From assembly GCA_025150425.1 (NCBI GenBank), contig CP102281.1, positions 868,001 through 932,000 on the forward strand: 64,000 nt of DNA, given 5' to 3'. The position numbers and the translations under genes were made by a program. This DNA is from [Eubacterium] siraeum. Its GTDB lineage: Bacteria; Bacillota; Clostridia; Oscillospirales; Ruminococcaceae. Below, piece after piece: positions 4,811 through 50,378 of this stretch (position 1 is the stretch's first letter; every line of letters starts with the position of its first letter). Under the pieces are notes generated by a model. It saw nothing but the letters and a program-made list of their open reading frames with translations, had not been told where the DNA came from and made no database searches.

Positions 4811-4839
4811 TTGACAAACTGATTTTATTCTGCTATAAT
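4811..4839 (+). promoter_or_regulatory. tRNA-Leu promoter
   Basis: A perfect TTGACA, 17-base spacer and TATAAT, 15 bases before the tRNA. Confidence 0.9.
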
Positions 4840-4854
4840 AGATTATGCTGATTT

Positions 4855-4941
4855 GCGGGGATGCTGGAATCGGCAGACAGGCAAGCTTGAGGTGCTTGTG
4901 TCAGTATTGGCGTGTGGGTTCAAGTCCCATTTCCCGCACCA
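4855..4941 (+). tRNA. tRNA-Leu(GAG)
   Basis: An 87-nt class II tRNA with encoded CCA. The acceptor arm is GCGGGGA/TTCCCGC, the anticodon stem CAAGC/GCTTG encloses loop TTGAGGT (anticodon GAG), there is a long variable arm, and the T-arm carries GGTTCAAGTCC. It is identical to the copy at 49213. Confidence 0.93.
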
Positions 4942-5021: not shown

Positions 5022-5145
5022 CACGCTGGAATCGCACGAAATCTTTGATTTTGTGGAAGCGGAATTTGTTCCGCAGTCAGACAGGCAAGCCCCAGGTGCC
5101 CCAGTCAGTATTGGCGTGTGGGTTCAAGTCCCATTTCCCGCACCA
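5022..5145 (+). pseudogene. defective tRNA-Leu(GAG) copy with hairpin insert
   Basis: This repeats the upstream tRNA-Leu from the D-arm onward. The T-arm, 3' acceptor strand and CCA are intact and the same terminator follows. The 5' acceptor strand has decayed, the anticodon arm has changed (AAGCCCCAGGTGCCCCAG in place of AAGCTTGAGGTGCTTGTG), and a 42-nt double-hairpin unit sits in the D-loop beside the conserved GG. It cannot fold as a normal acceptor stem, so it is called a pseudogene; an RNA function is not excluded. Confidence 0.7.
5035..5076 (+). repeat. double-hairpin D-loop unit, copy 1
   Basis: A 42-nt unit made of hairpin 1 (CACGAAATC-TTT-GATTTTGTG) and hairpin 2 (GCGGAAT-TT-GTTCCGC), ending CAG. 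Same layout as the units at 49392, 49436, 49767, 50006, 50048, 50225 and 50267. Confidence 0.8.
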
Positions 5146-9395: not shown

Positions 9396-11591
9396 ATGAG
9401 TATAAAAAGAACAGTCAGCTTAACCGGTATAAATTCAAGTGAGATATATTCTCTTTCATATCCGCAGTCTGTCCTTAAATTTGCCGAATATGACTTTTCC
9501 GGCTTTATCAGACGCTGCACCGACTATTGCAAAAGATGTGCGGAAAGCGGAGAGTACAGACTTGAGGATATTGTTGCGCTCCGTAATTCACTCGGTGCGT
9601 GTCACAAATATGTTGAGGCGAATATCCACGGCATTTATGAAAAAGCGGTGCAGGATCTGTTTATAGAATATCTTTGCAGAGAAAAGGGGCTTGGCATATC
9701 TTCCTTATGGAACGAGCTTATAAATGCCAAAACTCCGTTTGAAAAGCTCATATTCACAAGGCTTACCGAGTATCGTCACAATAAGGCGGTAAACCGCTGG
9801 GTGAGCCTTCTTCAGCTTCAGGAATACGCAAAACGCAAGATAGACTTTGTGTTCGGTGAAAAGGTCACTGCAGAGCAGGCATTTGCAAAGCGTGATTATT
9901 TCGATCTGACATTCAGCGTAGCCGCAAATGAGATGGGCTATCCGTCAGAATGCTTTACCGCCGCAAAGGTGTACACTGTCGGCAGGCTGCCGTCTGCTCC
10001 GTTCATAACGAGCAATATTTCAAAGGCGATAGCGGCTTCGGCACTTCCCGAGATCGAATATGAGGGCGAACACAGACCGTTTGCCGCTCTGCATTCGGAC
10101 AGCGAGGCGATGGACGTCTTTGCTAAGATAAAGAATTATGTTCCCGAAAAACCTGATTCGGTGCTGAACACGATAATAACAACGATGCGTTCTCTGCCGA
10201 AGAAGGTATACGTTTCGGACAGCCTCAAGGCGATAATAGATCTGGAAATAGATCTTTTGCTTGAAAGCGGGGGAGTTCTTCAGCACTGCGAACGCTGCGG
10301 AGAGTATTTTATTCGTGACAAGGATTACGACTATGATTATTGCAGTAAGGCTCAGTCGGGCGGCCGCACCTGCCTTGAGATGAGCACGGCGGTACCTCCG
10401 AGAACGGCGGATGAAATAAGACGGCTTGAGGATATGACCAAAGAACTGTATACATATATGTCGAAGCGTATAAACGTCGATCTTACACAGCGTGATTTTG
10501 CGGAGTGGTATCAGAGCTTTATGGCGATAAAGGAAAGTATCCTCCATAACGCTTTAAGCATTTCGGAATTCCGTGAATTTGAAAAATACTCGCACGACCT
10601 GCATTTTGCACCCGTAAAGCAGACACCGCTACAGGAAAAACCATCTGCGGCAAATGTTTCAGAAAGCACCGACACCGCTAAAAAGCAACCTGAGGTCAAA
10701 CCTTTTGTTTTTGAAAGAGTAGACCGCAGTGTTCTTTATGAGCAGGAAAACCGCCGCAGGAAGCAGGAGCAGGAACGTGAGCTTTATGATATGATGCAGG
10801 AAAGCGCCGCACCCGTACAGCAGGAAGCGGCCGCACTGCAAAACGAAGCTCCTAAGGCACCTGTTCACGTTGTAAAGGCCGGTGAAACGGATAAGCTGGA
10901 TGTCAGCCTGTTTGAAAATCCGTTCGACAATGCTTTCGAAAGCGAAATCTCCGAACTTGAAAAGGTCAGCGGTTATGATTTCAAGCCGCTTGACGATATT
11001 TTCAGTTTCGGCGGAGCAGATGACAAATTACAGCAGGCAACCGGCGGATATACCGATGAAGGCACTGCGGACGAAGACAGTTCCGATAAAGACGATAACG
11101 CATATACAGAGCCTGCTGTTGATACGGGCTTTGCAGGCGAATTTGCAAAAGCCGACTACAGCATAAAGCACTCTGTAACGCCTAAGAGCAACTATGCGGC
11201 AAATATGTACAGGCATACCGTTGAAACAACGCAGACAGCGGCAGAAGATTTCCCTGATGTACAGCAAAGCGGAGAACATCTGACGCAGGATGATTTTGAT
11301 ATTCTGCCGTCCTCGCCGTCACTTACTGTACCGGTCGGAGAAAAAACGTCCGTAAAAGCAAACCTTGAGGAAAAGCCGGCTGTGAGCGAAAAGCACGCTC
11401 CCCCTGTTATAAAGCTGGACGCTCCTTTAGTAGACAGCCTTACCGATGCCGATGATATTCCGGGAGCGGACAGACGCAGACGTGACAACGGCGGCACAAT
11501 GAACAGGAATACAGCAAAACGGCTGCTTGACGGCATAATAAAGCCGACAAAGATACGCAATCCGTTTATAGATGAAAATGATGATGAATAA
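9396..11591 (+). CDS. DUF6076-like protein with zinc-finger-like cysteines and long acidic tail
   Basis: 731 residues. The first ~400 are a globular helical region with a cysteine motif near 297-330 (CERCGEYF then YDYDYCSKAQSGGRTCLE), which resembles the cluster in the DUF6076-type protein at 30041 (CDICKKYF ... KYC ... ITC). Residues 400-731 are low-complexity, charged and probably disordered, with a glutamate/arginine-rich stretch around 447-470 and a basic end (RRRRDNGGTMNRN). The stop overlaps the start of comF. The function of the family is not known to me; the cysteine pattern suggests zinc binding. Confidence 0.55.
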   Translation: MSIKRTVSLTGINSSEIYSLSYPQSVLKFAEYDFSGFIRRCTDYCKRCAESGEYRLEDIVALRNSLGACHKYVEANIHGIYEKAVQDLFIEYLCREKGLGISSLWNELINAKTPFEKLIFTRLTEYRHNKAVNRWVSLLQLQEYAKRKIDFVFGEKVTAEQAFAKRDYFDLTFSVAANEMGYPSECFTAAKVYTVGRLPSAPFITSNISKAIAASALPEIEYEGEHRPFAALHSDSEAMDVFAKIKNYVPEKPDSVLNTIITTMRSLPKKVYVSDSLKAIIDLEIDLLLESGGVLQHCERCGEYFIRDKDYDYDYCSKAQSGGRTCLEMSTAVPPRTADEIRRLEDMTKELYTYMSKRINVDLTQRDFAEWYQSFMAIKESILHNALSISEFREFEKYSHDLHFAPVKQTPLQEKPSAANVSESTDTAKKQPEVKPFVFERVDRSVLYEQENRRRKQEQERELYDMMQESAAPVQQEAAALQNEAPKAPVHVVKAGETDKLDVSLFENPFDNAFESEISELEKVSGYDFKPLDDIFSFGGADDKLQQATGGYTDEGTADEDSSDKDDNAYTEPAVDTGFAGEFAKADYSIKHSVTPKSNYAANMYRHTVETTQTAAEDFPDVQQSGEHLTQDDFDILPSSPSLTVPVGEKTSVKANLEEKPAVSEKHAPPVIKLDAPLVDSLTDADDIPGADRRRRDNGGTMNRNTAKRLLDGIIKPTKIRNPFIDENDDE

Positions 11592-49169: not shown

Positions 49170-49198
49170 TTGACAAATGTAAAATTATCTGATATAAT
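49170..49198 (+). promoter_or_regulatory. promoter of second tRNA-Leu(GAG)
   Basis: TTGACA, 17 bases, TATAAT, 14 bases before the tRNA. Confidence 0.9.
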
Positions 49199-49212
49199 AA
49201 ACAAGCTGATTT

Positions 49213-49299
49213 GCGGGGATGCTGGAATCGGCAGACAGGCAAGCTTGAGGTGCTTGTGTCAGTATTGGCGTGTGGGTTCAAGTCCCATTTCCCGCACCA
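49213..49299 (+). tRNA. tRNA-Leu(GAG), second copy
   Basis: 87 nt, identical over its whole length to 4855-4941, anticodon GAG, CCA encoded. The flanking terminator is also shared, but the promoter spacers differ. Confidence 0.93.
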
Positions 49300-49303
49300 G
49301 TGT

Positions 49304-49336
49304 AAAGGACATTCGATTTTCGAGTGTCCTTTATTT
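49304..49336 (+). terminator. terminator of tRNA-Leu(GAG) copy 2
   Basis: Same AAAGGACA/TGTCCTTT hairpin as after the 4.9 kb copy, followed by ATTTTA. Confidence 0.85.
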
Positions 49337-49377
49337 TATATCTCGGCAAATCAGCAAAGCATTATCATCGAAAAAAG

Positions 49378-49548
49378 CCACACTGGAATCGCACGAAATC
49401 TTTGATTTCGTGGTAGAGGAAACTTGTTTCCTCGGCGTGAAATCTATGATTTTGCGGAAGCGGAACTTGTTCCGCAGATTGACAAAGGCAAGCTTGAGGT
49501 GCTTGTGTCAGTATTGGCGTGTGGGTTCAAGTCCCATTTCCCGCACCA
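49378..49548 (+). pseudogene. defective tRNA-Leu(GAG) with two D-loop hairpin units
   Basis: Anticodon arm (GCAAGCTTGAGGTGCTTG), variable arm, T-arm, 3' acceptor strand and CCA are the same as in the intact tRNA. The 5' acceptor strand is lost (AAGCCACACTGG instead of GCGGGGATGCTGG) and two hairpin units fill the D-loop after GGAATCG. The same terminator follows. Confidence 0.7.
49392..49477 (+). repeat. double-hairpin D-loop units, copies 2 and 3
   Basis: Unit 2 (49392-49434): CACGAAATC-TTT-GATTTCGTG and GAGGAAAC-TT-GTTTCCTC. Unit 3 (49436-49477): CGTGAAATC-TAT-GATTTTGCG and GCGGAAC-TT-GTTCCGC. Changes fall in pairs that keep the stems. Confidence 0.8.
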
Positions 49549-49685
49549 GTGTAAAGGACATTCGATTTTCGGGTGTCCTTTATTTTTATTCATAGAAGAT
49601 TTGAAAATCATTAGCATTAAAGACAGTGATAATAGAATCAGAGTTTTCCGATAATGCAGAAGGTGAAGAAATTTTTAAAAAACAC

Positions 49686-49714
49686 TTGACTTTGAAGCTC
49701 CGCTATGATATAAT
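49686..49714 (+). promoter_or_regulatory. promoter of the tRNA-Leu(CAG) cluster
   Basis: TTGACT, 17 bases, TATAAT. It stands before the truncated first copy; the intact tRNA follows about 135 bases later. Confidence 0.8.
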
Positions 49715-49748
49715 ATCAACGTTGACTATTTGGCAACGCATTAAATAT

Positions 49749-49820
49749 GCAGGTGTGGCGGAATTGCGCCAAATCTTTGATTTGGTGGTAGCGGAACTTG
49801 TTCCGCAGGCAGACAGCGCC
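49749..49820 (+). pseudogene. 5' fragment of tRNA-Leu(CAG) with one hairpin unit
   Basis: GCAGGTGTGGCGGAATTG matches the intact tRNA's first 18 bases. Unit 4 (49767-49808, CGCCAAATC-TTT-GATTTGGTG and GCGGAAC-TT-GTTCCGC) follows, then GCAGACAGCGCC, after which the tRNA sequence is lost. Confidence 0.75.
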
Positions 49821-49849
49821 CAATCTAAAGTTGTCAACATATTAAATAC

Positions 49850-49936
49850 GCAGGTGTGGCGGAATTGGCAGACGCGCTAGCTTCAGGTGCTAGTGATCGC
49901 AAGGTCGTGTGGGTTCAAGTCCCGTCACCTGCACCA
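49850..49936 (+). tRNA. tRNA-Leu(CAG)
   Basis: 87 nt; acceptor GCAGGTG/CACCTGC, anticodon loop TTCAGGT (CAG), variable arm GATC-GCAA-GGTC, T-arm GGTTCAAGTCC, CCA encoded. Confidence 0.93.
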
Positions 49937-49938
49937 AG

Positions 49939-49968
49939 ACAAGTCGTAGAAATACGGCTTGTTTTTTT
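49939..49968 (+). terminator. terminator of tRNA-Leu(CAG)
   Basis: ACAAGTCGTA-GAAA-TACGGCTTGT followed by TTTTTT; repeated at 50160-50190 after the next copy. Confidence 0.85.
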
Positions 49969-49989
49969 ATTGCTGATACATTTTAAAAC

Positions 49990-50158
49990 GGCAGTGGCGG
50001 AATTGCACCAAATCTTTGATTTGGTGGTAGCGGAACTTGTTCCACAGCACGAAATCTTCGATTTTGTGGAAGCGGAACTTGTTCCGCAGACAGAGAGCGC
50101 TAGCTTCAGGTGCTAGTGACGCATAGTCGTGTGGGTTCAAGTCCCGTCACCTGCACCA
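49990..50158 (+). pseudogene. defective tRNA-Leu(CAG) with two hairpin units (50006-50089)
   Basis: Three bases are missing from the 5' acceptor strand (GCAGTGGCGG for GCAGGTGTGGCGG). After GGAATTG come unit 5 (50006-50047) and unit 6 (50048-50089), then the anticodon arm CTAGCTTCAGGTGCTAG, a shortened but still paired variable arm (GAC-GCATA-GTC), T-arm and CCA. Confidence 0.72.
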
Positions 50159-50209
50159 AGACAAGTCGTAGAAATACGGCTTGTTTTTTTGCTGATACGT
50201 TTTAAAACA

Positions 50210-50378
50210 GCAGTGGCGGAATTGCACCAAATCTTTGATTTGGTGGAAGCGGAACTTGTTCCGCAGCACAAAATCTTCGATTTCGTGGAAACAGAACTTG
50301 TTCTGCAGACAGAGAGCGCTAGCTTCAGGTGCTAGTGACGCATGAGTCGTGTGGGTTCAAGTCCCGTCACCTGCACCA
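50210..50378 (+). pseudogene. defective tRNA-Leu(CAG) with two hairpin units (50225-50308)
   Basis: Same plan as the preceding copy. Unit 7 (50225-50266) is close to unit 5; unit 8 (50267-50308) has ACAGAAC-TT-GTTCTGC, where a G-C pair is replaced by A-T. Variable arm GAC-GCATGA-GTC. CCA present. Confidence 0.72.

Follow-up and report, generated by a model that had tools for sequence, protein, structure and literature searches.

The eight double-hairpin units found in the window (the whole stretch of 64,000 nucleotides analysed here, part of G000, a 2.69-Mb prokaryote chromosome of 2,694,742 bases) are, on balance, probably palindromic mini-elements that lodged in spare, tandem-duplicated copies of tRNA-Leu genes and spread with them, the complementarity of their arms being kept by correction at the DNA level and the copies themselves being pseudogenes. 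The original prediction placed eight units in five defective tRNA-Leu copies, always beside the conserved GG of the D-loop, and both statements held. Seven units, in four copies, lie within the interval it had described (49378-50378), and the remaining copy lies outside it, at 5026-5145, with its unit at 5035-5076. The prediction had also argued that this is not the pattern of random decay, and this view fits best, the same D-loop point being occupied in six of 71 genomes of the genus and in three isoacceptors.

All eight units are double hairpins of 42-44 nt. Hairpin 1 (H1) reads CACNAAATC-NNN-GATTTNGTG, with outer pairs that vary, and is joined by a short linker, GGTA in three of the eight window units and GGAA in five, to hairpin 2 (H2), GCGGAA-CTTG-TTCCGC or a variant of it. 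The CUUG loop is kept in seven of the eight, also where the stem is one pair longer, and the tetranucleotide before H2 is GTAG in three units, GAAG in four and GAAA in one. The H2 arm GCGGAA is identical to the 5' strand of the D-stem of the CAG copies. Each single unit, or the first unit of a tandem pair, enters at GGAATYG/GCAG, between the two conserved Gs of the D-loop, and the empty site, GGAATYGGCAG, is found in the intact copies of the same genome. The 42-nt consensus, with up to three mismatches, matched the window five times, against 0.00 matches expected from 100 shuffles, and the window has 14 perfect hairpins, four of which belong to units, a mild enrichment over the 3-7 of five shuffles. 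Over the eight units 97.5% of 120 cells pair, with two-sided changes in four of 15 pairs; the number of pair types is not above that of shuffles (66 of 500 as high). At gathering score, Rfam recognised in the window only the tmRNA and five intact tRNAs, and the units match no RNA that it describes.

The units sit in two loci, all features being on the plus strand; scores are those of R1, a model built from the window units. At the first locus, a sigma-70-type promoter with 12 of 12 consensus positions (4811-4839) serves an intact tRNA-Leu(GAG) with an empty D-loop site (4855-4941; ARAGORN, Rfam), followed by the defective GAG copy at 5026-5145, which holds one unit (70.6 bits), keeps its 3' half and CCA, and has a changed anticodon arm and no detectable promoter of its own. 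The second locus begins with another 12/12 promoter (49170-49198) and its intact tRNA-Leu(GAG), also empty at the D-loop site (49213-49299; ARAGORN), and a terminator (49302-49334) separates them from a defective GAG copy without the acceptor 5' strand (49383-49548). This copy contains a 44-nt unit whose second stem is one pair longer (49392-49435; 58.2 bits) and a further unit (49436-49477; 65.7 bits), and it is followed by a copy of the same terminator (49551-49583). Next comes a promoter with 11 of 12 consensus positions (49686-49714), 5' of a truncated copy and of the intact tRNA-Leu(CAG) gene, which has an empty D-loop site (49850-49936; ARAGORN) and a 3' terminator (49936-49965). The truncated copy, a 5' half of tRNA-Leu(CAG) located between promoter and intact gene (49749-49820), carries one unit (49767-49808; 69.3 bits) and has counterparts in three other genomes. 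Two defective CAG copies with two units each complete the locus: the copy at 49991-50158 (units 50006-50047, 68.6 bits, and 50048-50089, 70.5 bits) has a 3-nt deletion in the acceptor 5' strand, and the copy at 50210-50378 (units 50225-50266, 72.2 bits, and 50267-50308, 62.8 bits, the latter with two A.C mismatches) is its tandem duplicate, identical at 152 of 163 nt.

The defective copies had been described as keeping T-arm, 3' acceptor strand, CCA and terminator intact while the 5' acceptor strand decayed. The 3' half is indeed near-identical to the parent: from about tRNA position 24 to CCA or terminator, the four full copies agree with it at 100/101, 100/107, 105/108 and 61/62 nt. The parent's terminator, however, is present in only three of the four, the last CAG copy having a different one. 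The 5' acceptor strand is missing or carries a deletion, but judged from the sequence its loss may reflect the boundary of the duplicated segment and not decay: the two CAG copies have the 3-nt deletion in common, and in the two GAG copies similarity to the parent sets in only beyond the acceptor strand. Promoters close to consensus (11-12 of 12) stand before the two intact GAG genes and the truncated CAG copy; by consensus scoring at both window loci, nothing resembling a promoter was found in the stretches that separate the terminators from the copies following them, and the only further candidates, two 9/12 matches, lie at 49611-49655, on the 5' side of the CAG promoter. The best reading is that the defective copies are pseudogenes and that their intact neighbours do the work. 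A tRNA intron, removal of which would leave a complete tRNA, was rejected, since the acceptor 5' strand is deleted or missing in the four full copies and the truncated copy has no 3' half. The 5' flank and acceptor-strand start of tRNA-Leu(GAG) (49205-49220) recur in inverted orientation behind the terminator (49340-49355; 16 nt, 88% complementary), and a like inversion of the GAG 5' flank was seen by eye at the 4.9-kb locus.

The original prediction had suggested searching the own genome and its relatives with a model built from the units; pattern and model searches together located the H1-linker-H2 architecture in D-loops of tRNA-Leu copies in six of the 71 genus genomes (own included), in the isoacceptors CAG, GAG and UAG. 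A D-loop pattern search over the 71 genomes identified G000, G031, G020, G023 and G033, and G025 was added by models R2 and R3, which were built from the carriers' own sequences (G025 not in R2), so that carriers match them by construction. In the own genome, where R1 was applied to 150 of the 500 first-look candidates, the eight units reached 58-72 bits, and the next listed match (26.1 bits) was a unit read on its reverse strand. Over the 71 genus genomes (91 first-look candidates scored per genome) R1 was strong only in G000 and G031, the copies of G020, G023 and G033 scoring within its noise range. The G025 carrier is a half copy of tRNA-Leu(UAG) in which both stems are of other sequence, yet paired. 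A further copy in G033 holds only ATAT in its D-loop, a second double hairpin remaining at the D/anticodon junction, and it could be a deletion product; hairpin pairs also occur at this junction in G020 and G023. A comparison of filled and empty D-loops gave exact junctions, with empty sites in the same genome and in the relatives G031 and G025 (in the stretches read, neither the two GAG genes of G031 nor the CAG gene of G025 show an insert or a defective copy). No target-site duplication was seen. In G025 the tRNA-Leu(UAG) half copy with its unit is separated from the intact gene by a 137-aa gene (C29, about 10337-10751; L232) that is weakly like Immunity protein 44 (22.9 bits, cut-off 25).

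Among the candidates scored, a part of those from the first look (R1 in the own genome and 71 genus genomes, R2 in 14 genomes, R3 in 71), no Leu unit rose above noise outside tRNA-Leu, and no genome, G000 or relative, had dispersed copies above noise at many sites. Of the weak model matches, the loci read (30 + 3 + 4) were, by eye, mini-palindromes, reading frames, 16S rRNA helices (C1:22597, 1919525 and 2488695) and, in G035, a T-box-like leader. In 396 family genomes, eight of them of the genus, an H1-type pattern with up to three mismatches, which would miss other stem sequences such as that of G025, occurred in the own genome only and in none of the 388 outside the genus. A D-loop plus H1 pattern yielded seven stretches of a genome-contig collection in which near relatives are possibly absent, none with a tRNA in the fetched piece, and the unit was absent from phages and plasmids (blastn) and from viral contigs (exact pattern).

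Identity over a 240-nt fragment of smpB is 0.86 between G000 and G031, 0.95-0.97 within G020, G023 and G033, and 0.74-0.78 between the two groups. Across the two clades H1 and GTGGTA, the latter comprising the H1 end and the linker, are nearly identical, whereas H2 has been replaced outright. GTGGTA is common to all six aligned rows, five of the eight window units having GGAA there, and it suggests common descent from one lineage. Conservation of H1 and linker to this extent exceeds the expectation for a neutral relic. In the six-genome alignment, made on the same sequences as its structure so that the percentages paired lean to structure, 97.8% of 137 cells pair and two-sided changes occur in nine of 25 pairs; they amount to 17 cells against 5.9 in shuffles and 0-2 in slid controls. 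Pair types number 13 versus 13.5 in shuffles, with 389 of 500 shuffles as high. Pairing kept through two-sided changes is the mark of a structured RNA, and palindrome correction at the DNA level predicts the same. Over 13 units (215 cells) there are 205 Watson-Crick pairs, seven G.T and three A.C, with no clear bias towards the tRNA strand (p 0.34, a weak test on a small sample), so that this comparison lends no support to selection on the RNA strand. Folded as RNA, the full copy at 49989-50158 surpasses each of 200 shuffles in stability (z -4.75), which the hairpins alone would achieve.

A parallel was provided by a tRNA-match scan of G000 and G025, which led to tRNA-Arg(CCU). In G000 and G031, which are 98% alike, and in G052, the gene is followed beyond a terminator by a tandem copy whose D-loop contains a hairpin insert, directly after TATAA, and whose 3' half is intact; the terminator of the G000 copy differs from that of the intact gene. 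The core of the insert (query 66-121) occurs at 11 further places in G029, G033, G025, G028 and G023. At the one locus read in each of these five genomes it lies directly after TATAA, with a tandem second copy after ATTAA in G025, and at none of the five was there a tRNA under the core or an overlapping ORF of at least 90 aa. The Arg insert is thus a dispersed multi-hairpin repeat of the relatives, and it has a RAAATC-NNN-GATTTY module in common with H1. At E 0.01 the core has a single listed place in G000 and in G031, namely the tRNA-Arg copy. A family may therefore be dispersed in relatives while persisting here within a tRNA copy alone, so that the missing dispersal of the Leu unit counts for less as an objection.

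These features are consistent with the following course. A tRNA gene would be duplicated in tandem, the copy often beginning within the 5' acceptor strand or past it, with 3' half, CCA and terminator preserved, as is seen in the pattern of the copies. A hairpin element would then enter the D-loop of the spare copy, an event that would be harmful in a single working gene, and would multiply with its host by tandem duplication, both from one to two units within a D-loop and as whole copies, as the near-identical repeats suggest. Passage between copies of different Leu isoacceptors could proceed by recombination or re-insertion. What keeps the arms complementary would be correction of one arm by the other as the DNA is replicated, as described for quasi-palindromes, and not RNA function. 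Exact junctions with empty sites, one architecture in six genomes and three isoacceptors, the common GTGGTA, the possible deletion product of G033, the Arg insert in three genomes with its core dispersed in five, the lack of promoter-like sites before copies behind terminators and the wobble pairs without clear strand bias all argue for mini-elements. Against them stand the confinement of the Leu unit to tRNA-Leu copies, its dispersal being deduced from the Arg case, the absence of a visible target-site duplication, the conservation of H1 between clades above neutral expectation and the fold of the full copy. A tRNA-targeting mini-element was one of three origins originally offered, and it fits best by the D-loop site used across genomes and the dispersed Arg insert, though mobility of the Leu unit itself was not seen. 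The second, an RNA-copied, SINE-like origin, finds no support, because the copies are tandem to their parent and mostly (three of four full copies) retain the parent's own terminator. The third, a new structured RNA, is possible for the half copy 5' of the intact tRNA-Leu(CAG) and unlikely for the copies behind terminators, which have no promoter-like site.

That half copy is the basis of the main rival to the mini-element reading. A half-tRNA with a two-hairpin D-arm in the 5' leader of tRNA-Leu(CAG) would act in cis to control processing or level of the tRNA, the downstream copies being its decayed offshoots; on the present sequences we regard this as unlikely. In G000, G023 and G033 the 5' half with its unit stands downstream of a promoter and upstream of the intact tRNA-Leu(CAG) (promoters of the relatives identified by eye), and the same arrangement is deduced in G031, where the repeat terminates two contigs, one with the promoter and the other with the gene. 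The covariation over six genomes (nine of 25 pairs, 17 cells against 5.9), the conservation of H1 across an old divergence and the CUUG loop of seven window units agree with such a function. However, G020 and G025 have an intact tRNA-Leu(CAG) with no half copy upstream, the copy of G020 being downstream and that of G025 in a UAG gene; H2 is replaced between clades, and pair types do not exceed shuffles. Moreover, half copy and intact tRNA of G000 fold together with a z of only -1.67, and the covariation would also be expected from correction at the DNA level.

Two further readings each explain parts of the data, and no reading is proven. It is improbable that the 3' halves are displaced attachment sites of lost integrative elements and the hairpins sequences from the ends of such elements. 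Fragments of tRNA 3' halves are outlined as common attachment-site remnants in PMC9897764, and partial copies with an intact 3' end beside a whole gene are alike in both cases. In G000 a tRNA-Thr 3' half at C1:2057770 (L227) adjoins, by eye, the end of an integrase-like reading frame and is probably an attachment site; in G023 (L122, C184) the last ~29 nt of tRNA-Leu(GAG) with flank are repeated, by eye, ~200 nt downstream; and in two copies of G000, the last one of CAG and that of Arg, the terminator is unlike that of the intact gene. The Leu copies differ from such fragments in having tRNA sequence, namely D-arm, on both sides of the insert and the parent's terminator in three of four full copies, as tandem duplication predicts, and no integrase was recognised by eye among the listed ORFs near them. 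For these reasons, attachment-site fragments in the strict sense, one tRNA end repeated with an integrase between, were rejected. Slightly more improbable still is an origin in situ, in which template switching while tRNA copies are replicated creates the palindromes and no element is involved: the H2 of G000 would copy the D-stem GCGGAA, to which its arm is identical, and an inverted repeat of the GAG 5' flank does lie just behind the GAG terminator, but the GTGGTA common to six genomes suggests shared descent, the H2 of G020, G023, G033 and G025 is unlike the D-stem, and the Arg insert belongs to a dispersed family.

Among titles and abstract openings of the papers listed by the literature searches, no description of double hairpins in D-loops of bacterial tRNA copies was found. 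Double-hairpin elements were reportedly described in Allomyces mitochondrial DNA by Paquin et al. in 2000. Organelle elements of this kind, as outlined in PMC5910586 and PMC2800124, consist of two adjacent hairpins, lie also inside genes and are proposed to be mobile; hairpin-forming organelle elements also figure in PMC2670323. The Leu units resemble those of fungal and algal mitochondria in that two adjacent short hairpins make one unit, but they are bacterial, restricted to tRNA-Leu copies and not dispersed, whereas the Arg insert is dispersed in relatives. Rickettsia palindromic elements are likewise palindromic inserts in bacterial genes, differing by being longer and dispersed in Rickettsia genes. 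REP and BIME sequences have a conserved tetranucleotide before the palindrome, most often GTAG. The Leu units resemble these sequences, which are accompanied by TnpA-REP, as short non-autonomous palindromes of a bacterial chromosome, with GTAG before H2 in three of eight window units and in G031, but the tetranucleotide is not constant (GTAG, GAAG or GAAA, and GTAA in G020, G023 and G033). REPs are numerous and mostly intergenic, as summarised in PMC8266576, in contrast with the eight copies found here, all in tRNA-Leu.

The usual location of short palindromic elements is intergenic, and organelles have them within RNA genes as well. In the present case they recur in bacteria at a fixed point of tRNA copies, affecting no fewer than two tRNA families and more than one species, and they stay paired despite sequence turnover. 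If the association of element and spare tRNA is mechanistic, it would provide a natural system for the entry and spread of palindromes that carry no gene, and would also allow one to ask whether palindromes can become the regulatory leader of a tRNA gene. A rather doubtful extension is that, in one clade, the half-tRNA with its two-hairpin D-arm is a functional leader RNA controlling a leucine tRNA gene, its hairpins domesticated, and that D-loops of spare tRNAs are a preferred landing place for palindromes across families (Leu, Arg).

Other arrangements of tRNA-Leu were observed in the relatives. In L117 (G019:C52), L130 (G070:C11), L131 (G018:C163), L141 (G017:C181), L118 (G017:C124) and L163 (G019:C5) the gene is in broken halves: 5' halves end in the anticodon loop and continue into GGTTGCGTCACGACAGTG-like tails, and 3' halves are preceded by the reverse complement. 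The idea of split tRNAs was considered for G017, G018, G019 and G070, the tails of the 5' halves being complementary to the sequence before the 3' halves. G017 has both halves, and their acceptor strands match, which would suit split tRNAs as well as the ends of an inverted-repeat element; the 3'-half pattern, with up to three mismatches, was found among the 71 genomes in G017 only, so that G018 and G070 (98% complete) showed no partner. A conserved leader-like piece (TGCGGAGCAACTCGTAACAAAGTCCGCCTCGG..CCGTGTAAAA) lies upstream of the tRNA-Leu(CAG) copies of L116, L115, L114 and L117; it went unmatched when L114-L117 were compared with Rfam, it occurs twice in G033, and a similar piece is present in L139 (G070). 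Finally, Gut-1 RNA (RF01706), which forms multi-hairpin arrays beside tRNA-Leu genes in the same genus and differs from the units in having no match in the window at gathering score, adjoins tRNA genes of relatives in L115, L116, L120, L121 and L240.
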